DNA from: Xylogone sp. PMI_703
Lineage: Eukaryota > Ascomycota > Leotiomycetes
Direction: 5' to 3'
NCBI GenBank assembly: GCA_021399445.1
Contig: JAJTUQ010000004.1
Coordinates: 3,968,001 to 4,032,000, forward strand
Length of the DNA stretch: 64,000 bases
Numbering within the stretch: position 1 is the stretch's first letter; each line of letters opens with the position of its first letter. This document shows, one piece after another, positions 17,195 to 62,036 of the stretch. Position numbers and translations under genes: made by a program. The notes below the pieces were generated by a model that saw nothing but the letters and a program-made list of their open reading frames with translations, was not told the DNA's origin and ran no database searches.

Positions 17195-19016
17195 TCAGAT
17201 GCTTGGGCCCGCAACCTTAACAGGATGAGCTTCAGTGTTGAATACATACTGATTCTGTCCGTTGTGGTTGACCTGCCAGATGTTGTCCTAATCAAAGAGT
17301 CAGTATAATTGTCTGGATGATATCTTCAACGATGAAGAGATCAAACTTACCGGTGCATGGATTAAGTAGCTATATTTCATGACCTCTGCGAATAAGAAAC
17401 TGTCTTGGTTGTCAAAGAATCCTCCGCCACCTGCGACATTGACGTCCTTAATTTCAGAAAATCCACTACCAGTTCTCGTAGTCGCGTTGATTGCTACAAA
17501 AGCGTCCCATGCCCAGTCTCTGTACATCTGATCGCCAGTAACGCGGTATGCATAGTAGTAACTCTCGATAACCTCTGGGCGAAGAATGTAGTTTCCATTG
17601 GTGATGAAATAGCCCGTTGTGTTGTAGAAGGCTTGCTGGTCAGCTGGAACGGGTTGATTGTTTCCGAGTGGCCCATCAGTTACCCAGTTAAACCCTTCTG
17701 GGCCGATATGTGTCGCGGTTGAGGCGTAGGTGTCATGGCAGCCGGCCACAAGCTCAAGGCCGTAATCAATATATTTCTGTTCGTTGAGCACGGAACCACC
17801 AAGGAGGAAGGAGCCTCCGTCAAAGCAGGCAACTAAGTCACCAGGTTAGCCAAGAATCGTTTAACATATCTAGAATGAAGAGGCTTCTTACGATGCCCAG
17901 AAGAGTAGAACAAGTCTGTGCCAGAGTACTGTGCAAGAAATGTCAAGTCTGGTCTGCTTGAGGGGTGGCTTGTAAGATTTGCAATGGTCGAATCTGCAGC
18001 GGCAATCCACCTATCCTTGTAGCTTGCAAACCGAGTCGAGTCGTAAACATACATCTTCAATAGATACTCGTAAAAACTGTCATCTCCACCGTTCCAACCG
18101 CCAGAGGCATCCTGGAAAAGTCCAGTGTTAATGTCAACATTAGTGCCTACCAATCCGGGGAAAGGCTCAGAGGAAGCAGGCTGGGGGTTTAAGAGGAAAG
18201 ACTCTCCCTTTTGAGATAGTTCCCCGTATGTAGCATTTCCAGTGAGATCGGACAACCGGGTCCATTCCAAGACGAGTGTTCCAATGGTAGCTAGACCATT
18301 TGTGGTAGAGCCATCTGTCCTGGACGGATGAAAGAAGAGGTTGTTGCTTGGAATTCCCGTAGGCGTGTCGAATGCGAATGACAAGTTATCGGCCAAGTTC
18401 TTAGCTTGAGCCAGCACAGTGTCCACAAGCGTCTTATTTGATGCAAGATTTGCAAGAGGCCCGGTCAAAAGGTCGTAGCCTGAACAAATCAGTTCCAGGA
18501 TGCTCTCTAAACTCCACATATTACTACTTACCAGAAACCAGCCCTCCCAGGTAACGAATGGTCGTCTCAAAGAGGGAGATCTCCGTGCTATCTGCGGAGG
18601 TTGTGCTAAAGTCAATAGTGGGAATGTACTCTAAGATCGTGTTTACAACGTCCTTGTTCTGCATCAAAAGTGCAGTCGAGAAGGCGTCAATAGCACTAGC
18701 TCCCCATCCATTCCTATAAATAACATTAGAAAATCACGTAAAGAAGCCGATCCACTTATAAAAATTGAACCTACCTTGAGTTTCCAAAGCCATTCGATAC
18801 CGGATGAAGCTCATCGTGAGGGAATGCGAACTGCTTGTATCCATCCCAAGCAACCTGGAAGGCAGCCTTTACTGCATCCGCACGCTCCACATTGAGGGTG
18901 TGGTTATCTGGACGACTGCTCTTTCTGGCAGATAGAGTATTACCTCGAGGTGCCGCGAGCACAGTGCCGGCAGAGCACAAGGTGAGCGCCGAACCAAGTG
19001 ACAATTTGGAACGCAT
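17195..19016 (-). CDS. Secreted class I alpha-1,2-mannosidase (GH47)
   Basis: Five exons (19016-18775, 18713-18532, 18479-17892, 17832-17351, 17287-17195) join in frame to 528 residues, normal for GH47. The enzyme trims alpha-1,2-linked mannose from N-glycans in a calcium-dependent inverting reaction (family knowledge). The start is chosen at 19016 because it gives a clean signal peptide (about residues 1-21, [20 protein letters not shown]); the frame is open further upstream. Family stretches are [51 protein letters not shown] and, near the end, [13 protein letters not shown], whose Thr in the TEAHP motif is the calcium ligand in the family. The last exon starts DNIWQVNHN. Several N-glycosylation sites (NxS/T) are visible. 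Entry to the secretory pathway or outside of the cell follows from the signal peptide. Confidence 0.9.
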
Positions 19017-20587
19017 GGCGAAGGACGACGCAAGCAGACCGCTATATCTTCTCTGTCCGAAAGCAAAGGAAAATAGCAACAGAGAAGGAGTTCTCTCAAT
19101 TGACAATGAGAGACTCGTCAATTGAACTTATTTGAGAAGTTAAAGAGAAAAAAGAGGAAAGAGGAGGAAAAGAAAACAGGTGGGAAGCGGCGCGGTCTTA
19201 CCTTTCGAGCTCGAAGGGTCTCATCTAGAAGGAGCCAGCTACCCCAGCTTCGGAGGGGCCTTACAGCTCATCATTATCGTCAGCAGCATCATCGCGTGTT
19301 CCTTGCCCTGCTTTTGCATGGTTATTATGCGAGGGGAGAGGAGAGTGAGCGAGGAAGGAAGGAACGAAGGAAGGGAAAGCATGGGGATGCAGGAAGGAAA
19401 ATGCCGTGCGCGTCCATCTAATTGAATAATGAGGCCGAGAATCACTCCAGCATCGCCATGACGATACCGCAACTCCGCCCCTGAGGGTATTCCAGGCACG
19501 CGTAGTGCAGCTGCGAATCGAAAGGCGCTGTTGATGGGTTGGACGGAAGATGAGTTCCTAGAAGGGAAGAGGCACGACAACAATCCATGGAGATTTGCGG
19601 GGTATCGAGGACGATCCGCACTCAACTTCCTTGAATGTCTTAGAACCTGGTTTGTTCGCTCCAACCAAACATAAACAATCATCCGCCGGTGCTTCGCTGA
19701 GTGAGATTTCCACTCTCAATTACTGTACAACTCCCAGGAATGCGACTAACTTAGGATGGACTAATAAGTAGCTCGATCGCGACTTCGCCATGATTCTGGT
19801 TCCACAAACGCTCGAGTAACGTTGTGTTCTGCTTAGTTACCGGTGCCGATGCAGATAATACGTGCGTTATTATCATGCCGTGACCTTACTTCCCCGGGAT
19901 TATTGATAGTTCTTACCAATATGAAAGAGACACAAAAAGCTTTACGCGGAAAGCGGGGGAGACGCAGCTATGTATAATGCTTAGGTTATCTTAACTTTTC
20001 TTACTCAAACGGCACAGCCGGCCCTTTTCTTGAAAATGTTCATGTACCTGTCGGACCATAGATCATAGGACGAACATAACCACAAGTTGCAGCACGCGCG
20101 ACCAGCCAGTTGCACTGACTGTTATTACAGCTGCATCACGCTTAAGCATCGAGTCTTCTCCGAACCGCTTTAAGGACAAGCTTTCTGATAGACTCTTCTA
20201 GCTTGAACAGGCAGCTATTTGACTTGGTGAGTTGTAACCCTGTTTATTGCGTAAGTAAAAGGTTGTAAGCTCGAGTTTGCCTATATAAGAGCTAGTATGG
20301 AACTAGCTTCTGCAAGGATGACATTTTACTTGAACCAGAAGGGGACTTTGAGTAGAGTATTACAACTATTGAATGTGCATAGGCATTTTCGGACCAAGAA
20401 TAAGTGTGACACATGAAAAGAGAACTATCAGCACGTTCAGCCTCATGACGAACCAAGACAGCAATCAGCTTGACCCAAACTCAATACCGATATCCCGTAT
20501 ACGCAGAACACCAACAGAAGTCATATACCAGCCATAAAATCGTCACGAATAAAAGACCTTGACCATATGATATCAACCTAGACTCCT
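19017..20587. other. Intergenic with purine tract
   Basis: The left end is the mannosidase promoter and contains an almost pure purine tract (about 19137-19190, plus strand), so a CT-rich leader on the coding strand. A second GA-rich stretch lies at about 19332-19400. No gene is seen in the rest. Confidence 0.4.
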
Positions 20588-29486: not shown

Positions 29487-30007
29487 ATAGTGTTTATTTC
29501 ATCTGCTAATTTCTCAGCTTTATATCCCGATGTTAGTAACGAAACAGGAACGTCTAGTAATTGACTTTTAGTAGCTTAAATTTCCTCATTACTTTGAAGT
29601 CACTTAGCATTCACTCAAATGCGGAGATGCTCCTAACCACTCAACCCTGACTATTATTCGTGAAACTTTGAGTCTTAGAGTAGCCATGCAATTTTGGGTA
29701 GACTACTCATATCGTGCAGCTTCCAATACCCCCAAACAATACGGAGCATAACGAATAAACTGATTATTCTTAGAAGTGAGAAAATCATTAGAGTTTCCAG
29801 ATCGAACAGATATAGACTTTTCTTAGTTTTGGTACCAATGACTTCAATGTAGAATTTGGAGACTCCTTTAAACCCTCTCTACTCAAAAAAGTTCCTCGAT
29901 CACATCTTCTTCCCTCGTTTCCACACTAGCGATACCACGCCCGCTCCTGCCAAGAACCAAACCCCTTCTATATAACCCCAGATAAGAAAGCACTACACCG
30001 TGGGTGG

Positions 30008-30063
30008 GCAAGACCTGACCCCTCTGCCAGAGTGGTCAGAGTGCCAGAGGGGTCAGGTCTTGC
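30008..30063. repeat. Perfect inverted repeat, 19 nt arms, 18 nt loop
   Basis: The left arm 30008-30026 and right arm 30045-30063 are exact reverse complements, beginning GCAAGACCTGACC and ending GGTCAGGTCTTGC. The loop also repeats parts of the arm (AGAGTGGTCAGAG). The RNA or DNA could form a very stable hairpin. It may be a foldback element or the core of a small non-autonomous transposon; no target-site duplication was identified. Confidence 0.75.
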
Positions 30064-30909
30064 AGAGCAAGGAATGTAATGTAGGGGCCAATCCTAATAG
30101 TGAACTTCACAGAAGAACACTGAGATATTAGGGAAGATGTAGGCATACAAGCTATCACAGCTTGTATAGCGCCGAACTTTTTTGTCATTCCATCTATTTT
30201 TGTTCCGTCTTTCTTTTTTTTAATAGAGCCTGTATTGTTATTAAATTTTTTTTTTTTTGAACCATGGGATGGTAGGTGGATATACTCCGAGCTGGAAACG
30301 TCGTTAAGGTCAACGAGATGTCCATTGTTATGTAAAAGTTTATAACCAGTAAATTGCAATAGATTATTCTTAATTCTATTAAATTGCTCATCTCTTCAGT
30401 ATCCCACTTCATGTGAAAATACCGAGAGAGCAAGTTGTTACTGTGGATAGCATTGTTCTCCAGCATTCTTCAATCCGGGGGACAACCCAGAGGACACAGA
30501 AAGAGAAAACGTCATCAACGTTCATCTCTAAAGCACTAGAAACGATAAGGAAAAATTCAGCTAGGAAAAGTCCACGAACTGGACTCTGCAAAGGGTAGAT
30601 GGGAAAAGATGAATAGAGGGTGAAATCCTTACACACCAGGTCACAAGTAGCCAAATCCTTTCTGGCTCCCAATATTTAGTCTTCCGTAAGCTTGTCAGAA
30701 AATGACCTAGGTTAGTGCCTTAGCCCAGTTCTTAGACTGTAGCCACATGCCAAAGACGCATATGAACCCTGAATAATAAAGATGCAAACAAATCAGAGAT
30801 TAGTCCAATACATGACTTTCAGGAGTGCAAAGCAACCTCTCTTATTTGGTATCCGTTATCCCTAATCCAGCCAACAATCAACGGTCGCTTAGCTCAGTTG
30901 GTTAGAGCG

Positions 30910-30963
30910 GTTAGTTTGCATTTACGCACAATGCTTCGGAGCATCAAACTAATATTCCACCAG
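30910..30963 (+). other. Spliceosomal-type intron 1 in tRNA-Ile (54 nt)
   Basis: It begins GTTAGT and ends CCACCAG, with ACTAAT 12-17 nt before the end. It interrupts the tRNA between nucleotides 26 and 27. Inside lies a perfect small hairpin (ATGCT-TCGG-AGCAT). It has no run of four T that would stop Pol III. Confidence 0.8.
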
Positions 30964-30974
30964 TGGTGCTAATA

Positions 30975-30991
30975 TTCCCTTCACGGAAGAA
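30975..30991 (+). other. Canonical tRNA intron in tRNA-Ile (17 nt, position 37/38)
   Basis: The insert follows the base after the anticodon AAT, where nuclear tRNA introns cut by the tRNA splicing endonuclease normally sit. Exact ends are uncertain by one base because of flanking A residues. Confidence 0.8.
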
Positions 30992-31011
30992 ACGCCAAGG
31001 TCGCGAGTTCG

Positions 31012-31064
31012 GTATGCATCATCAATGTCTCTACGTGATAATTCAACTTCTAACGTCAAAACAG
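31012..31064 (+). other. Spliceosomal-type intron 2 in tRNA-Ile T loop (53 nt)
   Basis: It begins GTATGC, has TTCTAAC about 15 nt before the end, and ends ACAG. Removal joins TTCG to ACC, restoring the T loop and the B box. It has no run of four T. Confidence 0.82.
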
Positions 31065-31085
31065 ACCCTCGTAGTGACCATCAAA

Positions 31086-31092
31086 TTTTTTT
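31086..31092 (+). terminator. Pol III terminator (T7) of tRNA-Ile
   Basis: Seven T residues start 5 nt after the discriminator base, the usual distance and strength for an RNA polymerase III terminator. Confidence 0.8.
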
Positions 31093-32579
31093 GCCTTCGA
31101 AACTTAACGTTACTTTGAAGACGGAACTCTTGCCTTTTCATTTTTATTTCTTTGATATTCGTTTTTATCGTACTTGGAGACAATAGGAAGAATAAGAGAA
31201 CAAACGTCTCGAATTTTCTCTTTTTGGGTGTAAGTCTATCTACTTCGGACACGCTGGATACGTCAGACTGCACTAACTTTTCACACCTCCCTCCTCTTTT
31301 CACTGGGTTCCTATCCTAGACCTCTGAATTTCTCCTATCTCTTTCCCTCATTTTCCTCTTTCCTGCACATATGAGCAGCCAAAAGAAACAGACTTTGGGG
31401 GCACTCTCCGGCACAACTTTCCATTCTCCTCGCTTATAGTTTCCTCAATATGATCTCGTCTGTTCATAAAATTACCAAAAATAGGCTAGGGCAAAGCTTA
31501 TTGCAATGTCGACACGGCGTTCTATCAAGACGAGACCCCACAGCAATGCCCAACGGGGCCCAATGATGATTGACTTTATCAAAGAAAGTGCATCAAGCGA
31601 TGAAGCTCCACTTTTTCAGTTTTCCCACTGTACACAGTCACGATAGCTCAGGATTTGGTCGTTCCAATAGATTTTGTAGTAGCATCTTCTAGACACTAAA
31701 CTAAAGTAAAATGAAAATTATAGTTGGTGACCTTCTCATAGTTTTGCTACTTACCTCTTTAGAGCAAAGTGGTCTACACAATGGAAGGGTAGTCGTTGAC
31801 AAATGGTTTCGACGAAGGTACAGGCATATAAAAGAGCTGGAGAGGTTGCAAATACTTGATGTTGGTCTAATATCGAGTGGTTCAAAGCAGATCGCTGTGC
31901 CGTCAGGGTAGAACGTTGTCCATCACCTATATCCGGCGGGAAGATACGGGATGTCGGTGGTGGAGCACTCCAAGTGCTCCCTCATTCCACAGTTCCAGTA
32001 TCTATTCGACTTTGATAAGCGAGGCCCTTCCTTTGAATTGCAAACAAATCAGTCCTCTCAAAACCCCATCGTCCTCAAATGCGTCATAGCTAGCCATTAT
32101 GAGAGTGACAGTAATAGCTCCTAGTGCTAGGAATCAATGAAGATATCGATAAGCCATGTACGCTGGGTGTGAGATGTTAATTATTCGCTTGAATAGCACC
32201 TTTGGATCCTTTTTCTCTTGGTCCTGGCTTTTTCTGTCCCCCGCTCTCTCGTCGTAGTACACGCTACACTACGAACTATCATTTCTGCAGAAATAATTGA
32301 ATCGTATTTATATAGTAGAATCTTAAGACAATTAATAGATTCCTATAGTCCTGCCAGGAAACCTAAACCGTCAAATCCATTCTCAGAGACAGGGCACATA
32401 CCCCACCTTCTCTCTCTGTGCACTCAAATTTCATCTCGGTAAAAAAAACTCCAAGCAGCGCGCTCTCATAAAAAGGATATAACAAATAATTATGGTCAAT
32501 AGGGATGAATCAAATAGACTTCTTTATAAAAATATAAAAATATAAAAATATAAAAAAAATCATAAGGATAGAAAACGTT
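31093..32579. other. AT-rich stretch between the two tRNA genes, no protein gene seen
   Basis: The only frame worth naming is 31711-31911 (+), 66 residues starting MKIIVGDLLIVLLLTSL, which has a hydrophobic start but no recognisable family. The right end holds an A/T microsatellite listed separately. Confidence 0.4.
32526..32559. repeat. A/T microsatellite, about four AAATATAA-type units
   Basis: Units of ATAAAA/ATATAAAA repeat next to each other and end in a run of A. It lies about 20 nt beyond the terminator of tRNA-Pro. Confidence 0.7.
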
Positions 32580-32587
32580 AAAAAAAA
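32580..32587 (-). terminator. Pol III terminator (T8) of tRNA-Pro
   Basis: On the minus strand eight T residues start 5 nt after the discriminator base of the tRNA. Confidence 0.8.
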
Positions 32588-32628
32588 GTGAAGGCGCAAT
32601 CCAGGGATCGAACCTGGGACCTCTCGCA

Positions 32629-32647
32629 TATTGACTTAGAGTTATAT
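32629..32647 (-). other. Canonical tRNA intron in tRNA-Pro (19 nt, position 37/38)
   Basis: It follows G37 directly after the anticodon AGG. Only five exon bases (TAGGG) separate it from the neighbouring spliceosomal-type intron. Confidence 0.8.
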
Positions 32648-32652
32648 CCCTA

Positions 32653-32710
32653 CTGTGGAATTTATTAGGCACTGGTTCCGAGGACACCTTAGAAACATCT
32701 TGCTACTTAC
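32653..32710 (-). other. Spliceosomal-type intron in tRNA-Pro anticodon loop (58 nt)
   Basis: It begins GTAAGT, has CTAAT about 13 nt before the end, and ends CCACAG. Removal joins CTCGCT to TAGGG, restoring the anticodon loop. It has no run of four T. Confidence 0.83.
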
Positions 32711-32727
32711 AGCGAGAATCATACCGC

Positions 32728-32782
32728 CTGGGAAAGTTGTTAGTTGAAAGTTCAATGACATGTTGACTTGGTTGTTACTCAC
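32728..32782 (-). other. Spliceosomal-type intron in tRNA-Pro D loop (55 nt)
   Basis: It begins GTGAGT, has CAACTAAC about 15 nt before the end, and ends CCCAG. Removal joins GGTCTA to GCGGTATG, restoring the D loop and the A box. It has no run of four T. Confidence 0.83.
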
Positions 32783-32796
32783 TAGACCAATTGCGC

Positions 32797-33735
32797 TATT
32801 TAGGCGGTGGAGTGCAGGATGCTTAAAAGTGTTGATATATCGCTCCGGGGAATTCAGCAGGGGGAAAGAAAATAGGAAGAACTAGACGGCCATAGCAGAA
32901 TCGATGCTTAACCTCTAGAGAACTTGCGGGTAGCTAATTCTATAGTTTTTGAGGACTTGTTACGATACCTCTTAATCACCTGCGCGCCCCGTGCAACCAA
33001 AACAGCGGATGACATTCCCCTTCTCTAATTCGCACAAAGTTACCATCTATTCCCACTGTTTTTTCATCCTCATTATCATTTCATAACTGCCTAACTACTA
33101 AAGTTACTAAGTTGGTATACGTTCCGTATAGGGTACATGCTTTCACTCTTCAAGTAAGCATCATTGTGTCATGTCAAGCTTAGGAATAGTAGGAGTAGCA
33201 CGAGAAAACAGTGACATAATTACGAAACGTCGAAATGTGCAATTTCCCACATTATCACACAAAAATAAGATACAAATGTAAACATTCTTTCAGCTTATTA
33301 TATTAATAGATGGAAGAAAAACGAAAGCTAAGACACAGTGATGAAACTAATGATTTTGCCCCATTACTTTTTCCCATCAGAATCCCCGATTCCCTTACTC
33401 ACCCTCCTTTTTTGGTACCCGGCTGCCATGTACCGCGCGAGCAGCAAACATGCGATCTCGGAAAACTTTTCTCTTTTATTTTTCCCCCTCAGGTTTCCTT
33501 TTTTTGGTCCACCGTGGCCTCATTAAGTATTCTTCCGCAAAACCCGTCCTTCAAGTAGTATCGTATGACAAGGGTGCATCTGCACTCCTTGTCAAAGAAA
33601 AATCCCTAGAAACAGCAACCTAGCCAGTAAACTCCAATTGGAGCCAGCTAGTTCTAATGCCCAGCTAAAACTCAACCCAGAGACGCCGTCGTTAAGATAC
33701 CGTAGATAGTAAGCCCCAAAAATGCAGTCGTACAA
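32797..33735. other. Intergenic, no gene seen
   Basis: This is the upstream flank of tRNA-Pro and the 3' flank of the DapA-family gene. No reading frame is convincing. Confidence 0.4.
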
Positions 33736-34887
33736 TTACAATGCCATCTCAGTCTGCACCAATTCTCTAAAGCCCTCCTTCCACTTCTTGTTCTCCTCGG
33801 CTGTGGGTCTTGGAAGGGGACTTCTGCCATATCCTCCGTATCCGAACCAGTTTTGCAGGCCAGCCTTGGTGCTCACGACACCGCCTTGAATGGCTGTCCA
33901 GTCGCCCCGAGCAACAATTTCTTGCATTTTCAGTGCCTCGCCCATCTTGCCCTCGCGATAGAGTTTGACGACCTCGAGACAAGACTTTGGTGCAATGTTG
34001 GCCAATCCAGCCAGGATTCCATGACCGCCAGCGACAAGGGCTTGCAATGTGAAGTCGGCGGAGCCAGCCAGAACGAGGAACGGTGGCGCCGACGAAGACG
34101 TGTTTGATGTGGCCTTGGACGATCGGGTGGCTGCTGCAACTCGGTTCAACTTGCCGGTGTTTCCGCACGTGAGCTTCACACCCGCGATGTTGGGGTGCTG
34201 TGATAGCGTGATGATGGTGTCCGAGGAGAGATCCACGCCATTTGCACCGCCGGGGTAGTTGTAAATGATGAGTGGGATGGGCGAGTTATCCGCAACGCTG
34301 GTGAAGAATTCGATCACCGATGCAGCCGCAGGCTTGAGCAGTCCAGCATAGTAGGAAGGCGGCAGAACAAGGGCATAGTCTCCTCCAGCTTCGAAGGCCT
34401 CGCTGCACAGCTGGGTGGTTTCTCGGACGGACTGAGCTCCGCATCCCACGATGACGGGTATATGCGAGTATCCCGCACCGTCCAGTGCACGGCGGGTAGT
34501 GCGTGTAACCAGCTGGCGCTCAGAGTGAGTGAGATGAACCGCTTCGCCATTGGAACCCTGGGTTGTGAGGCCGGTAACACCAGCACGGGCAAGGTAGACG
34601 GCATGACGGGCAATGGTCTCGGTGTCAACATCCTCGGTAATGGGATCGAAGAAGCACATGGTTGGGACGTAGACTCCTGGAATCAGAGGTCTCTCGGGTC
34701 TGGGCTCATCGTCGGCGTCCAGGGAGCTGGTGCTGCAGGATGATGAGTACTGGGCATCAGTGTAGCCACCGTTGCGTGTGATACTGGGGACCTGTAGTGG
34801 TGCACTGGCAGCCTGTCTGAAGGTAGTGGGGTGGAACCCGGCGTTGTAGCTTCCAGCAGGAGAAGGAGCGTCGTTGTGTGGTGCCAT
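33736..34887 (-). CDS. DapA-family (dihydrodipicolinate synthase-like) lyase/aldolase
   Basis: A single frame encodes 383 residues from the ATG at 34887; an ATG 66 nt upstream (34953) is in frame but adds a stretch unlike the family. After a disordered N-terminus of about 65 residues comes the TIM-barrel domain of class I aldolases: GVYVPTMCFFDP, LTTQGSNGEAVHL, the catalytic Tyr209 in IIYNYPGG and the Schiff-base Lys238 in IAGVKLTCGN. Fungi make lysine through alpha-aminoadipate, so this is not lysine synthesis. Relatives act on 2-keto sugar acids or 4-hydroxy-2-oxoglutarate, and the substrate here is open. The gene is intronless. It is followed upstream by the longest gene-free stretch of the window. 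Confidence 0.85.
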   Translation of the reverse strand: MAPHNDAPSPAGSYNAGFHPTTFRQAASAPLQVPSITRNGGYTDAQYSSSCSTSSLDADDEPRPERPLIPGVYVPTMCFFDPITEDVDTETIARHAVYLARAGVTGLTTQGSNGEAVHLTHSERQLVTRTTRRALDGAGYSHIPVIVGCGAQSVRETTQLCSEAFEAGGDYALVLPPSYYAGLLKPAAASVIEFFTSVADNSPIPLIIYNYPGGANGVDLSSDTIITLSQHPNIAGVKLTCGNTGKLNRVAAATRSSKATSNTSSSAPPFLVLAGSADFTLQALVAGGHGILAGLANIAPKSCLEVVKLYREGKMGEALKMQEIVARGDWTAIQGGVVSTKAGLQNWFGYGGYGRSPLPRPTAEENKKWKEGFRELVQTEMAL

Positions 34888-47305: not shown

Positions 47306-49527
47306 ATGCTTTGGAGACAGGCTTCTATCTGTTTCTTGTTAACTAGCATCTCTCTCTTTTCTTGCGCTGCTGGCGCCCAGACGCAGAATGTTACCATCAC
47401 GGGAATCCACACAGGTGTCAACAATAAGACGGGCGAGAGGCCTCCTAGGCGGAATATCTTAGATCTCCAATATGATACTCCACAATGGTATGCTCCAATT
47501 CAACGTGGTGCATCGCTACATAACTAATATTATGGCTTTAGGTCGCTCTATATCTTAGCACTTGCTGTCATGCAGACATCTGCTGATAGTGATTTACTGG
47601 GATATTATCAGATTTCTGGTAAATAAACACCGAAATTTATTCCTTTAATCCGGGATTTAACATTGGTATAGGCATCCATGGTAGGCCATATATCGCATGG
47701 AATGGCGTGAACACCGTGCCAGGTGCCCCTTCCACGGGATATTGTACTCACGGTATGTAACTCAAGGAGTAAAATATCTCGCAATACTTGTGACTTATTA
47801 ACCTTTAGATTCTGTGTTATTTCCAACTTGGCATCGACCATATATGGCTCTGTTTGAGGTGAGATAGCTCTTCGTATTTACGGCATCCTTGACTGACCAT
47901 TTTCGACAGCAAATCCTCGTTACTTATGCTCAGCAAATAGCAGAGATGTACCCCGCCAGTTTCAACGATACCTATAAAACTGCAGCAAAGAATCTCCGCG
48001 TCCCGTTTTGGGACTGGGCCTCAAATGCGACTATACCATCTGTAGTCAACCAACCGTCAGTGGTCATCCAGACTCCTTACGGGTATCAGCCTTTCGCCAA
48101 TCCTTTATATCAATATCAGTTCAAAAGTTTCCCTTTAAACACTACTCTATTCCCACCGGATGCATACGATGGAGAGCTTGCTCAGTATAAGACTACTGTG
48201 AGAAGTCCAGATAAGGCCGGAGGACCGTCTAACTTCGCAACTGCAAATAGCCAATTGACGCGCGATAATCTAAAGCAGAGGACTGTAAGCATAACGAATC
48301 CGCCGAAATATGGAGACAGGTTTCTTACTCATTACTATAGTACGATGCATTGGTAAAATCGACTACATTCAACACGTTTGCGACAGTTACTTATGGAAGT
48401 AATGCCATCGAAGGAGTCCATGGCTCAGTACATGTGGACATAGGAGGTACATATGGCCATATGTCACAGCTGAGTTACTCTGCATTTGATCCTATATTGT
48501 GAGTGCCCCTATTTTTGCTTGACTAGCTGACAGTGCTGATCTCGTGAACGAAGTTGGTTACATCACGCCAATGTGGACCGTCTGTTTGCCATCTGGGAAG
48601 CACTCTACCCCGACCAGTTTCTCGAATCAGCAAAGGATATTTATGGCACTTTCACTATCCCTACAAATTCTAATGATACGATCGATACGCCGTTAACACC
48701 ATTTTCGAAAGACGGCACCGCATTCTTCACTTCAACGGGTGTTCGGAGCATGAGTGTTTTTGGATATACCTATCCGGAAATTCAAGACTGGAACCAAACT
48801 CCCACTCAACTCAAAGCAAATGTTACCTCTCAGATCAACAAGCTATACAATCCCAATGGCGTGAATACAGTTTCTAAGAGATTTATGGATGGCGAACCGA
48901 AACTGATTAGACGCCCACATGCCAAGGCGACTGAGCGTGTCGAGAAGGATCGCGCTTGGTCGGTCAGTATCCAAGTGAACAAGTTTGGCCTCGATGGGAC
49001 TCGATTTTTTATAAGAGTGTTTCTTGGAGCTGTACCCAAGGACCCAAATGACTGGTCAAGTGCCTCCACTCTCGCTGGCTCAATGCCAGTTCTTCCGGCT
49101 CCCCATGGAATGGGCCCGCTGCCTGTGGTATTAGTCAATGGCGAAGTCAACTTAAGTCAAGAACTGGCCGAAGCTGGATTTGATGGCAACGAAGTAGACG
49201 AAATTCTGCTTTACCTCAAAAAGAATCTACACTTCAAGATTCAAATGGTGCGTAACATAACTCCCCGTTCTAGTCATTCATAATACAATCCCCACATACT
49301 AAATCCAGGGGGCATAACAGTTCAATGGCACAGCCGTCGAAAACCGACCAGACCTATGCTTAACCGTCATGGTCCAAGACGAAGAAGTAACACCAGCAGG
49401 TGCAGTAACTGAGTTCCCAACATTCGGGGAAAAGACACTGCATCCGGACGTGTTGGGGATAGTGTACGCAGCAGCAGGTGCGTTAGGGGATGCCGTATCG
49501 AAAGTTGCGAGAAAGAAGACTGGATGA
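47306..49527 (+). CDS. Secreted tyrosinase (type 3 copper enzyme)
   Basis: Eight exons (47306-47487, 47542-47618, 47672-47752, 47809-47858, 47910-48284, 48341-48498, 48554-49247, 49321-49527) join in frame to 607 residues. The enzyme oxidises mono- and diphenols to quinones, as in melanin formation. Residues 1-24 look like a signal peptide (SICFLLTSISLFSCAAGA). The copper A site is H89 (GIHGRPY), H113 and H122 (FPTWHRPY). The copper B site is H282 and H286 (EGVHGSVHVDIGG) and H311 with H312 (WLHHANVDR). The intron at 48285-48340 is required to reach YDALVKSTTFNTF. The C-terminal 200 residues, ending LGDAVSKVARKKTG, match the cap or tail region that keeps fungal tyrosinases latent. Several N-glycosylation sites are present. 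Confidence 0.92.
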
Positions 49528-55341: not shown

Positions 55342-58300
55342 ATGGCCATCTCAGATGCGGTCCAGACTTCACTGGCCGCCTTCTTTTTGTCAGTATTTTC
55401 TCATAACATTTCTCTATTCTAATTAGACAACTGACAATTGCATATCTCCAGTGGCATTTTATTAACTGCAGGTTCGGGTTCTTTATTAGTAAATTATGGG
55501 CGATATGGAGGGATAGTCTTCAAGGACGGCCCGAGGCTGGTCCTCGTGCTATTTCTGGTCGCCGCTATGCTCTGGTCGGTCTTTGAATTCGTGAACCTAC
55601 TATTGCCGACGGTGAGGAGTACCTGCCAGGTCTTTCTAGTCTTCTCAACACTTTCGGATCAATTTGCGCGGGTGGCGGTGGAACAGGTGTTGCTGTGGGC
55701 AGTGGGAAAGGCGACGAAAGAATTCTCGATGATCTCGTGGATATCGCATCTATTCCTCCAGGTGATAGTGGCAGTTCGGTTCATTGCTGGGATTGTTCTT
55801 GTTGCTTTCACAAGACCACAATTTGCGCCAACGTGTGTAGCGCGTACATCGGTTCTCCCGGTGTCCATTGTGACTATCAGCTTGGATGGTATCATTCTCA
55901 GCGGCTTGTTGGTTCGTGCGGTCTACCAAAGTACACAACAGGGTGCTATCGCAAAAGAGGAAAAGAATTTTGGTGTGCTTTTCAGCGTCGTAGCATTTAT
56001 TGCATGGACTGGGGTATGTCTTTGATTTTCAGCCGCATTGCAGATCCATATAGAGAATGCTGATCAGTTCTGCAGACTAGTATTCCGATGGTGCTCGGTA
56101 TCCATTCTATCACATTGATATTTAGAACCACTCTGCCTGCCATTGGTCTTCTCCTGCTTCTGGGTAAGAAGACAGTTCTCAACTCTGGATTGTAACTGAC
56201 GGTCGCAGGTATTCTCACGCCTTTCTTTGGGGCTGTGCTGTCCTTGAAGGATGGGCAAAGTATTATTCCTGAGGCTCGGTCTCCATTTGTTGCACCACCA
56301 TCACAAACCCGGGAGGTCGTCGGTACTGGCACCCCAGTAACTGGTCACCGTTATACGGGTAGCGGAACCTTATACATCGTCAATCCTTCTTTGACACCCG
56401 GCGAATCCCCCGCTCCCACCTTTCCGAACTACAGCAGACCGGACGGCAGAGGAATTTCGAAGTATGGCAACTTTAAGACTCGCGGTAATGAAGATGAGAG
56501 ACAAAACCATCTCACGCCCAACTACATTGCAGGACGCCGAGGCTCGAATGGCATTTTCCCACCCGTTCCGGCTGTACCCTTTACCGACCTTGCAAATTCT
56601 CCCGGCAATGTTCCAATGCCTCGTCTCGCTCCCGTTGATATCTCTAGAAATGCCCCTGTCAAATTCTCTCCTCGTCCTACTCTGGAGAAGAGATCAATGT
56701 TTGGCCGGTCGAAGACTCCAAAAAAGGACAATGTTAGAGGTCTGGGCATCTCTCATCCAGTTCTTATTGAGCAGGATAGATCTACTAGCCCCTTTCCAAA
56801 GATCCCTACTGTCGACCTCCATACTGCCGCTGAAATGGAACGCACACGACGTGAAGGGCTTAGAACTAGGACCAGCCTCGTTGCTTCTAGACCAGCTCCC
56901 GCTCCGCCAACAATGGCAACAGAAGAAGCCTTCAAACGAAGTATCAGTGTTAAGAGAAAAGAGGCTCCTCCTTATACCAGAGACTTGACTGCCACAGTTT
57001 CGAGCCCTTCTTCGTCACAACTCGCCATTCCAAATGGTAGCTCAACTTCTGCTTCTCTCTCTCCGGGACAGGAAGACATGCGTCGTCGTTCCCCAAGGAA
57101 CCTTACCGCTTTCAATCCGCATGTTGCCAGTCTCAATAAGCAGAAAAGAGTAAATATCGGTCTCCCTGCGAACCCTAGATCCCAGCTGATAACAATGAAC
57201 TGGGAGATGCCATTGGAAAGAGAACCAGTACCCAAGGTCGTGCATGATGCGGCTTATGAGAACTCCGACATGGTGAGGAATCTCATAAAGGGAACTAATC
57301 AAAGAAATGCTTCAGTAAAATCAGCGAAACCGGCGAAGTTACCTCAAGAACAGCAAGCAAATGACATAAAGACTCCTACGTCAGTCATCCACAGACCCAG
57401 ACCAGTAAGGCGCCATACTGAAACAGAACGAATCATTTTCCCGACAGATCCATCTCCTACTCATAAACGCTCTAAATCCAGTGGCCACGTTTTGACTCGA
57501 AAACCTGCATTTTACAATTATCCGGGTAGTCCATCACAGTTACCAGAGCTTCCTCGTCCACCTACTAGCGCTGCTGAACTGAAACGTCTACTACCTAATG
57601 ACACAAAGAGCATGACATTTGATGAAAAGATCCAACTTCTCTTTCCGGCTCCACCAGGAGCGGCTTATGTACACCATAGGACGTCTTCAGTACCATCTGT
57701 ACCGCGAATTTCATCGCCCTTCCTAGCCTTCGCAAAAGGAGCCGATGCGCCTGCTTACGAGGATGATATGACGAGCCAGCGCTCTTCCAAGAGATTGACA
57801 ATTGCTTCCTTCGATCATCCAGCAATTTCCGAAACGACCAAAGCAGAAGTATCTAAGTTAAGGCAACCAGAAGTCTCTCATTTCAGCACCACGACCTATC
57901 GATCTGTCATAGATGATGTAGGTGATACCTCATTTCTTAGAATGTCAAGAAACACGTCGCGGGAATCGGCTGCTCAGAAATCCACTAAAGGACGTAATAC
58001 GGAATATGACATGCGCAAATCCACTTTCACGGATGTGACTACGAGTGATGAATCCATGACCAACTGGGGCTCTATTCATTCAGCTGTACCTCCTTTTGAT
58101 ATCTCCCAAGCAATGCAGATGGCACGAACTACCTTTGTTCAAGCACGGGATAGGCATGACCAAACGACTCAGTTAAAGCCTTCTTCTCCAACAATGAGCG
58201 AGGCAAAGAGCACAGACGGGTATATGACAATCATGTTAGACACTAACAACACTTCTCCATCAGCTGTAGAGAAGGTCAATAGTCCTCACGAGTCAACTGC

Positions 58301-61300
58301 TCGAGCTCTTGAAGATTCTACACGTAATAGTCGAGATGGATATTTCCGTATTGGTGATGAAGTCCCCACCTTCTCTGAGCGAAGAAGGGCAAGAAAATCC
58401 CAGAAAATGCCACCACCAACACCTTTACTCCTAAAGTCGATAACGTATGGGAGACAACCTACTATTGCAGTCCGTCATGCGGAGCCCTCGCCGCCGCTTG
58501 AGTCGCCTGAACATGCTCTCCAGGAGATTGAGAGTCAGCTGCAACGCTTGGAGTCAACAGATCGAAGTTCAGTAGGCTCAATGATAAGGCATGTGCCTGA
58601 AGTAAACTCCAAAAATCCAAGTCTCAACATTGCCGATAGATTACGACTCCTTGAAAACCTGGAGAAAGAAATGGGCCAACAAGAAAGCCAATGGCTCCAG
58701 CTTCATCATAACCTGGACCGTGACTCGACTTCAACCTTGGCAGCTACTCCCGTGGCTTCAAACCGCTCCGAGATTTCTTCCCCAACCTCGACTCAGGGAT
58801 CTCAGAAAGGAAAGTCAACAACTAGGACTCCACCTCGTGTCCTCTCTCGTCGCGAGCGTATCAGGAATGGCTTGGCACGTCGTGCTAGCAACAGCAGCGA
58901 AGATACTGCTAGCAGGCGATCATCCCAAGTTTCTGCCATCTCGAGAGCTAGCGTGCTACAGAAGCGCCTTGTCCAGTCCCAGACCAAGTATTCAGAGAAC
59001 ACAAGCTCTTTACTGAGCACCAGAAATCTCAATCTGGCCACCGCCGATAGGGCAGAGGTTCACATGGCACTTGGAAGCCCTACGCCACCAGATAGTGCTA
59101 GTGATAATGAGAGTGAGCTTGAGGCAGTGATAGAACATCGAGAATCCCAAGACGAAAAGCCTTCAGCAAAGATAACTAAACCCTTATTGTGGGAGAAAGT
59201 TGTGCCTGAGATTCACACGGAGGGACTACTATGGACACCATCATCATCAAGCGTGGAGGTTGAACGTGTCTCTTTTGCACCCCCACCAAAGGTTTCCCGA
59301 AGAAACTTGCATAAGGATGATAAGTTACAGCCTCTTACAAGCTCTTCTCTCTGGGCAAAGCCACTTCCAGTGAATAAGCGGCCCTTGGCTGGTCTTTGGG
59401 GCTCAAAGCCTGCCAGACCGAAGAGTATCGTGACTCGCCCAGTTACACAAAGACCCCCTCGTAGATCTAGGCGTGTCACGATGCTTCCTGATATTGGTAA
59501 GTAATCATCCGAGTTTCAAACTACGTATCACAGCATAACTAACCGTTTATCAGTCGAGAGTCCAGTACCGCTTCCAAACAACAGAGAAACACTTGGTATA
59601 TTCCAGTTTCCTTGGGGAGAGACTTCTGACAACGCAGTCTACCAACCAGTTGTGCCTCCTGTCCCTTCACAGCCCATACCAATGGACATTGCCTCTCGAC
59701 TCAACGCCCGGTCAATGGAGCTCGAACCGGAAGGCGAGATGGAATACTCGTCATCCTTCTTTGATGATTACGATGAGGAAGATGCCGATCTTGACCAGTA
59801 TGCTGCCTCGGAAAGTGATGACGACTTCGATGAGACTACACTTTGGGAGATCGCAAGTCTATTAAAGACTACTGAGCTTCCGAGTAAGGATAGCTTAATA
59901 TACTCGGGAAGATCCATAGACGTCATCGAAGATTACGATTATGAAAGTGGGTCGGACTACGAGAAGGAGAGAGAGGAAGAGGAAGATGATGAGGATGAAA
60001 TTCTTAAGCCAACGGTATATCAGATGAAGCTGCCCATCCCCCCTCTTGCCCCTATCAAGTCTCCAAGACTGCCAAAAGCATCGCTATTATGGGAGCCCTC
60101 TATCAAGGTTCCAGCTAGCGTTCATGATGGTCTTTTCTCCACTATTGCGAAGAGAAATGATTACCGGTACTCCACTCTTCCTCCAGCTGCACTCAATATG
60201 AGCTACAAACCCTACACATCTTCCGCCCCATTGCAGAGTCTGACTTCTACCACTCTCTGGGAAGGTCCCCTGACACTACCCACTGAAAGAGACTGGATCT
60301 CAGAATCCTCAATCCGCCCTAGAAGTCCTTCAATATATTCCCCTTCATCCCCTTCATCCTGCACATCACCTCTCTCCGAAATCGATGCATCCGATGCTTC
60401 TTCCATAGCGTCAACAAGCACGAAAGCCTCTTCACTGTGGAGTTCTATTAGCTCAGCTGCAACAAAGAAGATGCCTTGGTTCGAACGGAAAAAGGGCGCT
60501 AAGGCTGCAGATGGTAATGATGTCAAACATTCAAGGACGCCCACTCGGAAACTCTCAGTTTCGGCTCTGCCAGCCCTTAGAGAATCTAGGGTTTTTGATT
60601 CTAATGATTTATGGATATCTGGAGGAGCAATTTCAACTAAACGGGCGGAGAGCCCGTATGATTCTTCGGTATGCCATCCGGTGTTTTTCACCGAAACACT
60701 TGTCTCTGGCACAGCTGATATTCACCCCGCTGCGATAGGACATGTTAACATCCTGTCACAAGAGATGAAGGTCTCACAACTTTGGAGTATCGATAAACTA
60801 CAACGTGGTCCTTCGGATGCTACTTCTTCGCTATTATGGTCCAAGCCGTCTGATGCCAAGCAAGAGGCTGTCAACACGAACTTCCAGGGACACTTTCTTA
60901 CCCGACGATCAACGAATCAATCAGTACCTGCCCTATCTGCTTTAGTCTCAACCGCACTCTTCGTCCCTATTGCAAAGTCCTCTGAATCAAAGCATTGGTT
61001 ACACTCAACCTCTCAACGCCGCACTTTATCTGCAAAGACATGGACTCCTCCGGTACCCAATGCAACTCGAGTTGAAGTTTCCCTGTTGTGGTCTCCAGTT
61101 TTGTCAACTAAACAAAAGGATAATTATGCGGACTTTGAAGGACACCAAATGCCAAGACGTGCAAGAAATGAAGAAGCTTCAATCCTAGCCCCTCTTGTTT
61201 CTAGAGGGTTATTCAAACTAGAGCCACAAGCTGCATCCAAGAACTGGCTAATGGTAGCCTCTCAGCGACAAACTTCTCCTGCAAGGATGTGGATACCTTG

Positions 61301-62036
61301 TTTGCATGCTAAGGCTCCCACAAATGACTCCTATCTTTGGTCTAAACCCTCTCGAGTCCAGGAAAAGGAGAACCATGTACCCTTCAGAGGACATGCGATG
61401 ACGAGACGTGCGCGAAATCAAGAGTCATGGACTGTATTATCGATCTCCACAACGGAGCTGTTCCAGCCATTGCCGAAATCCACTGTATCCAAGAACTGGT
61501 TAATCGAGACCTCTCGGCGATGTGAAGCCTCAGGTATAAAACTATGGTCACCTTCTGCAGTACAGATCTCTCAGGAAGATAGTTCACCTCTATGGTCTAA
61601 ACAATCAAGCTTAAAGAAGAGAAACGATTATTTCGAAGGACACTATACGATGAGAAGATCAAAGGCCCCAGAACCAGTGGCGGTCCTCGCGCTTGAATCT
61701 TCGGAGCTATTTAAAGTGATACCCAAAGCTTCAGCCAAAAACTGGCTGATTGCTACTTCCGAGCATCAGTCCCTGGCTAAGACATGGGCTCCTGCTGCCC
61801 CTCAATCAATATCCAACAACGGATCACTCTTGTGGTCACGTAGAGCTTCAATTGAGTCAAAGAGCCAGGGATCCAACTTCAATGGCCATGAGCTCATCCG
61901 ATCGTCTAGACCTAAGTACACACCAAGCCTTCCCGTCCTTACCTCTACGGAGTTCTTCAAGCACACCCTAGAGTCCGCCACTATCTCAAAGGACTGGCTC
62001 GCCACAACTTCTGAACTCGCTCGTGCTCAACGCTAA
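55342..62036 (+). CDS. 2155-residue membrane protein with Trp-containing C-terminal repeats
   Basis: Five exons (55342-55388, 55452-56013, 56076-56163, 56209-59496, 59554-62036) join in frame to 2155 residues. Residues 1-290 contain about seven hydrophobic segments (for example FGILLTAGSGSLLVNYG and RLVLVLFLVAAMLWSVFEFV). Then follows a very long Ser/Pro/Arg-rich region with no fold in sight, with many RS and SP pairs and one predicted helix (LRLLENLEKEMGQQESQWLQ). Next comes an acidic stretch (EKEREEEEDDEDE), and from residue 1754 there are about five repeats of roughly 80 residues. LW-S/E/P motifs also occur singly before the repeats. I do not recognise the family. A seven-helix front with a huge cytoplasmic tail suggests a sensor or scaffold in a membrane, but that is inference. 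Confidence 0.8.
60831..62036 (+). repeat. About five tandem protein-coding repeats of roughly 80 codons
   Basis: Units start at about 60831, 61083, 61333, 61588 and 61827. Each has the order LLWS-x(15-20)-F-x-GH-x(2-3)-RR, then a Leu/Pro-rich piece ending S-x-ELF, then SKNWL-x2-TS-x-R and a TW-x-P before the next LLWS. The units are diverged at DNA level, so the repeat is old and held at protein level. Confidence 0.75.

Follow-up and report, generated by a model that had tools for sequence, protein, structure and literature searches.

Putative U2-type spliceosomal introns in the nuclear tRNA genes of a fungus

At least 25 tRNA genes of the genome under study, specific for Pro, Ile, Thr, Arg, Phe and Leu, are interrupted by a total of 29 short inserts at 11 positions, and these inserts are very likely to be U2-type spliceosomal introns residing in nuclear genes transcribed by RNA polymerase III (Pol III). 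We favor this interpretation because all 14 inserts tested against paralogues fit GT..AG boundaries, the inserts carry splice signals and resemble mRNA introns, in line with the control provided by the ordinary introns at 37/38, and because the exons have stayed alike over diverged inserts, TTTT is scarce, and no uninterrupted Pro(AGG) gene was reported. A precedent is available as well in the spliced U6 of fission yeast, also a Pol III transcript. Two of the interrupted genes lie in the window, i.e., the whole stretch of 64,000 nucleotides that was analyzed; the genome searched comprises 50.1 Mb in 25 contigs. A dihydrodipicolinate-synthase-like protein encoded near the window locus has 88% identity to its counterpart in Scytalidium lignicola and 72% to the next named match, from Chlorociboria aeruginascens, and on the basis of this comparison the genome is assigned to a leotiomycete near S. 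lignicola.

The tRNA-Pro(AGG) gene of the window, as read from the sequence, occupies positions 32593..32796 of the minus strand and contains two spliceosomal-type inserts together with one 37/38 intron (the position numbers within the tRNA, such as 14/15, 19/20 and 32/33, follow a numbering assigned in this analysis). Exon 1 (positions 1–14; 32783..32796) is followed by a D-loop insert of 55 nt at 14/15 (32728..32782; GTGAGT..CTAAC..CAG), exon 2 (positions 15–32, 17 nt; 32711..32727), and an anticodon-loop insert of 58 nt at 32/33 (32653..32710; GTAAGT..CTAAT..CAG). The third exon measures 5 nt (32648..32652), and its sequence, TAGGG, consists of U33, the anticodon AGG, and G37. It is separated by an ordinary endonuclease-type tRNA intron at 37/38 (19 nt, not GT..AG; 32629..32647) from exon 4, which extends over 36 nt from position 38 to the discriminator (32593..32628). 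On direct reading of the same strand, a run of eight T resembling a Pol III terminator is found 5 nt beyond the gene (32580..32587). The initial annotation had given these gene, exon and insert coordinates, and when the sequence was re-read and the segments removed all of them were correct; it had also described the GTGAGT/GTAAGT, CTAAC/CTAAT and CAG signals of the two longer inserts and placed one in the D loop and the other at 32/33, where it parts position 32 from position 33 only five nt before the 37/38 intron, and this too is what we read.

Removal of the three segments leaves, as had been claimed, a 72-nt tRNA-Pro, which ARAGORN calls tRNA-Pro(agg), while the unspliced 204 nt of the gene give no ARAGORN call. 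The cloverleaf with an AGG anticodon obtained after splicing scores 111.6 in ARAGORN for the window gene with the 37/38 intron kept, and 122.8 for the two further copies on contig C1 discussed below. Minimum-energy folding of the spliced RNA of 72 and 91 nt did not return a cloverleaf (z −1.3 and −1.6, respectively). Genes of this kind can be missed by tRNA finders: ARAGORN, for example, reports no tRNA over the whole window, and an Rfam search of window positions 30000–34000 gave no tRNA match. The description of tRNAscan-SE 2.0 states that a eukaryotic tRNA gene has no more than one intron.

An independent second case at a distance of 1.5 kb had been cited by the initial annotation, and it is real: it is a tRNA-Ile(AAT) gene on the plus strand (30883..31080) in which two spliceosomal-type inserts accompany a 37/38 intron. 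The first insert, at 26/27, is 54 nt long (30910..30963; GTTAGT..CTAAT..CAG), and the second, of 53 nt, lies in the T loop at 57/58 (31012..31064; GTATGC..CTAAC..CAG); the 37/38 intron between them has 17 nt and is not GT..AG (30975..30991). By direct reading, a run of seven T that resembles a Pol III terminator follows on the plus strand 5 nt beyond the gene (31086..31092). Because the B box is interrupted by the T-loop insert, the promoter would be expected to be weaker. Another copy in the genome (L103) has an insert at the same 26/27 site, and the paralogue L083 on contig C12 has the 37/38 intron only, its exons being identical at all 74 nt to those of the window gene after splicing. ARAGORN misnames the anticodon in both L083 and the spliced window gene, and the Ile(AAT) identity is a manual reading of the loop CTAATAA.

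In the genome-wide search, two further Pro(AGG) copies were located on contig C1 (L005a and L005b), each of which is interrupted once, in the D loop at 19/20. Both the 32/33 insert, for which alignment with the paralogues permits only one placement, and the 37/38 intron of the window gene are missing from the two C1 copies. The comparison with other Pro(AGG) copies of the genome that had been proposed at the outset thus yields a D-loop insert located 4 nt away and, after splicing, a mature 72 nt that is identical in the window gene and both C1 copies. The window gene including its inserts matches only these two copies at E 0.001; the 36 nt of exon 4 were reported at three genomic places, and the spliced 72-nt query, at E up to 10, likewise returned three places, none of them uninterrupted. 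When the interiors of the D-loop inserts were aligned, the window gene and L005a gave a score of 9.0 (shuffle maximum 8.5 in 500), and the window gene and L005b a score of 2.5, which 2 of 500 shuffles reached. Judging from these alignments, the inserts at 14/15 and 19/20 are probably one ancestral intron that would have shifted by 4 nt between paralogues with the mature tRNA unchanged. That the two sites represent separate insertions is less likely, given that the interiors of the window and L005a inserts align above all 500 shuffles.

With the Rfam tRNA model, 57 matches were obtained in the genome, 55 of them over the cut-off. Six of the 57 fall in interrupted Arg(TCT) genes (two), interrupted Thr genes (two) and Glu-like copies (two); the remaining 51, all of which were read except C12:6680811, are apparently tRNAs without such inserts. 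A pattern combining the B box with a T-run matched 84 genomic sites, versus 24 for the reversed pattern, and many of the matches are tRNA 3’ ends missing from the Rfam list. The interrupted genes that were read comprise Pro(AGG) (3), Ile(AAT) (2), Thr (3; AGT, CGT and TGT), Arg(TCT) (2), Arg(ACG) (3), Phe(GAA) (3), Leu(AAG) (4), Leu(TAA) (2) and Leu(CAA) (3), and these counts are a minimum, as the B-box search is blind to genes with a cut T loop and part of the pattern matches were read. The Arg(ACG)-like L107 (C19:7290813), which has lost its 5’ half, was excluded from the 25. Two of the Leu(AAG) genes, L108 (C22:2598591) and L109 (C12:4131574), were analyzed without full 5’ ends; each has two spliceosomal-type inserts, in the D loop and the variable arm, and the D-loop site is empty in both L068 copies. 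Fifteen of the 25 genes additionally carry a 37/38 intron. ARAGORN accepts 22 of the 25 after splicing, although it assigns a wrong anticodon or isotype to some, namely the window Ile gene, both Leu(TAA) genes and the Leu(CAA) gene L101.

For inserts with a suitable paralogue, the boundaries were examined with splice signals ignored, by finding the single-insertion placements that best explain an interrupted copy versus a paralogue. GT..AG was among the 1–6 equivalent placements in all 14 of these tests (Pro 4, Thr 3, Ile 3, Phe 3, and the D loop of Leu(AAG) 1). Those tests in which the reference’s insert, or the other insert of a two-insert gene, was first removed, the latter at its GT..AG limits, are not fully independent. 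The reference site was truly empty in 11 of the 14; for the other three, all on the Pro D loop, the reference’s own insert, 4 nt off, was taken out first. Eight tests had no mismatch outside the insert, and the other six had 1, 3, 3, 4, 4 and 10. The paralogue test replaced a free deletion scan in which every deletion of 38–75 nt was scored with ARAGORN, because that program accepts D and variable loops of unusual width and reports spurious tRNAs (9 of 23 unspliced interrupted genes gave such calls); of the 25 insert tests in the scan, GT..AG came out on top in 2, and 4 returned no hit at all. The remaining 15 of the 29 inserts fall outside the paralogue test and were delimited by hand, at GT..AG or, for two of them, at the tRNA boundary.

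The inserts are 49–64 nt long (median 54; n=29), and none is located at the canonical 37/38 position. At the 5’ splice site, all 29 have GT with a G at +5 (GTNNG); +3 is A in 18, G in 6 and T in 5, and +6 is T in 23. The branch motif YTAAY is present in 27 of the 29, its A lying 9–15 nt from the end, compared with a mean of 5.7 and a maximum of 13 in 500 dinucleotide shuffles; the other two have no strict YTAAY near the 3’ end. The 3’ AG occurs in 27 as well, the exceptions being two of the three counted Arg(ACG) copies (CTG and CCG). As a control, the 37/38 introns of the interrupted genes were examined, and 0 of 15 have GT..AG, with YTAAY in 5 of 15. Taken with the 14 paralogue tests, the excess of the branch motif over shuffles agrees with the earlier judgement that chance is very unlikely. 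Group I and group II introns have a structured core of some hundreds of nucleotides. Such self-splicing introns were rejected as candidates, the inserts being too short for a core of that kind.

The mRNA introns of the window served as a yardstick. A GH47-type gene on the minus strand (17300..19127) has three inferred introns of 61, 52 and 59 nt, which start with GTAGGT, GTAAGT and GTAAGA, contain the branch-like sequences CTAAT, CTGAT and CTAAC, and end in TAG, CAG and TAG, respectively. The 3’ part of a tyrosinase-type gene on the plus strand (48341..49283) has one inferred intron of 55 nt with GTGAGT, a branch-like CTGAC or CTGAT, and the end AAG. Thus the same kinds of signal are found in the window mRNA introns (52–61 nt; n=4, inferred) and in the tRNA inserts (49–64 nt). 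Eight mRNA joins were attempted, of which two had no candidate, two had no convincing one, and four were used; these were picked among frame-keeping joins by protein continuity, and two of the four had been ranked second by the script. A run of five T occurs in 2 of the 4 mRNA introns and in 0 of the 29 tRNA inserts. Elsewhere on the plus strand of the window (56196–62033), two long open reading frames of 1102 and 843 amino acids lie in the same frame with a single stop codon between them, and neither gave a Pfam match.

The anatomy of the interrupted genes is like that found in Cyanidioschyzon merolae, which raises the alternative of bulge-helix-bulge introns in atypical places, excised by the tRNA splicing endonuclease as happens in that species and in archaea. 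A four-pair central helix, sought in strict registers only, is however possible in 1 of 28 testable inserts, compared with a mean of 1.9 when the exons are re-dealt, and bulge-helix-bulge introns do not require the GTRAGT, CTAAC and YAG signals that are near-universal in the inserts. We regard this alternative as exceedingly improbable. The spliceosomal-type reading that the initial annotation had given for the Pro gene is upheld by the likeness of the inserts to the window mRNA introns, by the same mature tRNA being obtained from the other Pro(AGG) copies, and by the many other tRNA genes that are interrupted likewise.

The likeness of exons and inserts between copies bears on a second alternative, in which the interrupted copies are pseudogenes, i.e., spare tRNA genes that harbor introns or intron-like elements, while uninterrupted copies do the work. 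With the 37/38 introns removed, the Pro exons are 100% alike versus 68% for same-site inserts; the corresponding values are 100% versus 65% in Arg(TCT), 96–100% versus 54–66% in Phe, 98% versus 62% in Leu(TAA), and 96–99% versus 67–71% in Thr. In these five families, exons that are 96–100% alike over inserts that have drifted to 54–71% argue against pseudogenes, although gene conversion could preserve exon likeness without selection on each copy. The contrast is 94–97% versus 79–91% in Arg(ACG), 86% versus 66% in Ile, and 82–84% versus 54–67% in Leu(CAA), and the four variable-arm inserts of Leu(AAG) are 59–70% alike. The inserts are also depleted in TTTT, the Pol III terminator: it occurs twice in 1573 nt of insert, versus 13 occurrences of AAAA and a mean of 7.3 in shuffles, 3% of which reach two or fewer. 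Two inserts contain TTTT.

Uninterrupted copies speak on both sides of the matter. They are present for Ile(AAT) (L083), Thr(AGT) (L007), Thr(TGT) (L010 and L015), Phe(GAA) (L097) and, by manual reading, Thr(CGT) (L096), all of which would suit the pseudogene explanation. Two sites, C21:5038121-5038179 and C12:89379-89437, match positions 14–72 of Arg(TCT) without interruption at 90% and 86%, respectively, and may represent either Arg(TCT) genes that lack an insert or a different Arg tRNA; because of these matches, Arg(TCT) was left off the list of families without uninterrupted copies. That list, whose absences are of unequal weight, consists of Pro(AGG), Arg(ACG), Leu(AAG), Leu(TAA) and Leu(CAA), and it counts against pseudogenes. 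At the sensitivity of the search, which recovered 3 of 3 known copies, there is no uninterrupted Pro(AGG), and genome searches with spliced queries reported none for Arg(ACG) or Leu(TAA), with known copies recovered in 3 of 3 and 2 of 2 cases. The absence of uninterrupted Leu(AAG) and Leu(CAA) copies from the spliced-query searches is weak because only 2 of 4 and 1 of 3 known copies were recovered. Some Arg(ACG) copies appear to be decaying, among them L107 with its lost 5’ half. L062 and L064 (C1:6080975 and 6083428) have lost the AG of the insert, and one also has a shortened D loop, their exons being largely intact, the appearance expected if splicing was lost first and decay followed; L095 is the only Arg(ACG) copy found with full splice signals. 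Insertions in the D and T arms of eukaryotic tRNA genes are mostly pseudogenes according to Yoshihisa 2014 (PMC4090602). On balance, we consider it decidedly improbable that the interrupted copies are pseudogenes.

With regard to origin, the inserts might descend from recently spreading mobile introns (introners), an explanation that would not conflict with removal by the spliceosome. Because many genes were hit, at 11 positions, several insertion events must be assumed. The similarity of inserts between isotypes is, however, barely above that of shuffles (best score 10.0 versus a shuffle maximum of 10.5; two higher scores are both between Thr copies), at E 0.001 the interrupted Pro gene of the window matched the two C1 copies and nothing else, and same-site inserts have diverged, so that these at least are not recent. 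A recent spread of introners is considered unlikely.

Under the favored U2-type spliceosomal reading, which is inferred from the splice signals, Pol III would transcribe the full precursor up to the T-run, and the spliceosome would recognize the GTRAGT-, CTAAC- and YAG-like signals and remove each insert of 49–64 nt. The tRNA would then fold, and any 37/38 intron would be removed last by the tRNA endonuclease and ligase, because in the genes with a cut anticodon arm that arm can, for reasons of geometry, form only after spliceosomal splicing. We further consider it reasonably probable that the spliceosome is an obligatory tRNA-processing machine in this lineage, with several isoacceptor gene sets all needing it before the tRNA endonuclease. 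Among the candidates for such dependence, Pro AGG and Arg ACG are best supported, and Leu AAG, Leu CAA and Leu TAA are likely. If this is true, decoding capacity depends on the spliceosome.

The U6 snRNA of fission yeast has an mRNA-type intron that is spliced from a Pol III transcript and is thought to have arisen by reverse splicing (PMC10484740). It is like the tRNA inserts a spliceosomal-type intron in a short Pol III RNA; it concerns one snRNA gene, itself part of the spliceosome, whereas here at least eight tRNA anticodon families are involved. Several introns per tRNA, in the D, anticodon and T arms, are likewise described for C. merolae, where ectopic introns, e.g., of tRNA-Ile(UAU), have hBHBh’ motifs (PMC9602550 and PMC3978253), in contrast to the fungal inserts, in which the bulge-helix-bulge helix is not enriched and spliceosomal signals are present. 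Ectopic tRNA introns of archaea have bulge-helix-bulge motifs according to the same two papers and PMC4090602. The tRNA-Pro(UGG) of Pyrobaculum islandicum has two non-canonical introns and one canonical intron (PMC4090602), as does the window Pro gene, but these are archaeal bulge-helix-bulge introns in an organism without a spliceosome. In the nucleomorph of Guillardia theta, the removal of tRNA introns was shown by sequenced RT-PCR products, and its eukaryotic introns lie in the D and T arms with up to three per gene, as here; at 3–24 nt, with a mechanism given as unknown in PMC4090602, they differ from inserts of 49–64 nt and are, we would argue, too short for known spliceosomal removal. 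Ordinary eukaryotic tRNA introns sit at 37/38, where none of the 15 examined here is GT..AG, and the inserts sit elsewhere. An mRNA-type intron was reportedly described by Rogers et al. in 1993 in fungal 18S rRNA genes, which are structural RNA genes of fungi as here, but for rRNA and not tRNA.

The open-access literature that was searched yielded no account of nuclear tRNA genes with spliceosomal introns. Within those sources, what is new is a known class of intron in a class of genes for which no such report was found. If the interpretation is correct, the spliceosome is able to process Pol III precursors of very small size, including one in which an exon measures just 5 nt. Such genes would also show, as an experiment of nature, if Pol II is required for splicing to be efficient, and would document, one site after another, how introns were gained and shifted where gene structure is known.

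Other short RNA genes of the genome were surveyed with searches that cannot show interrupted copies. The U6 search gave one strong match over the cut-off, which spans 1–105 and is uninterrupted, and all 28 reported 5S matches are full length and scattered over the contigs. L060 (C1:4404705), where a peculiar anticodon region precedes a 3’ end like that of a tRNA, resembles a degraded or further split tRNA. At L040, three Glu(TTC)-like copies (C19:7489993, 7490833 and 7491920) show mispairing in the acceptor stem or lack the 5’ half, and these are probable pseudogenes.
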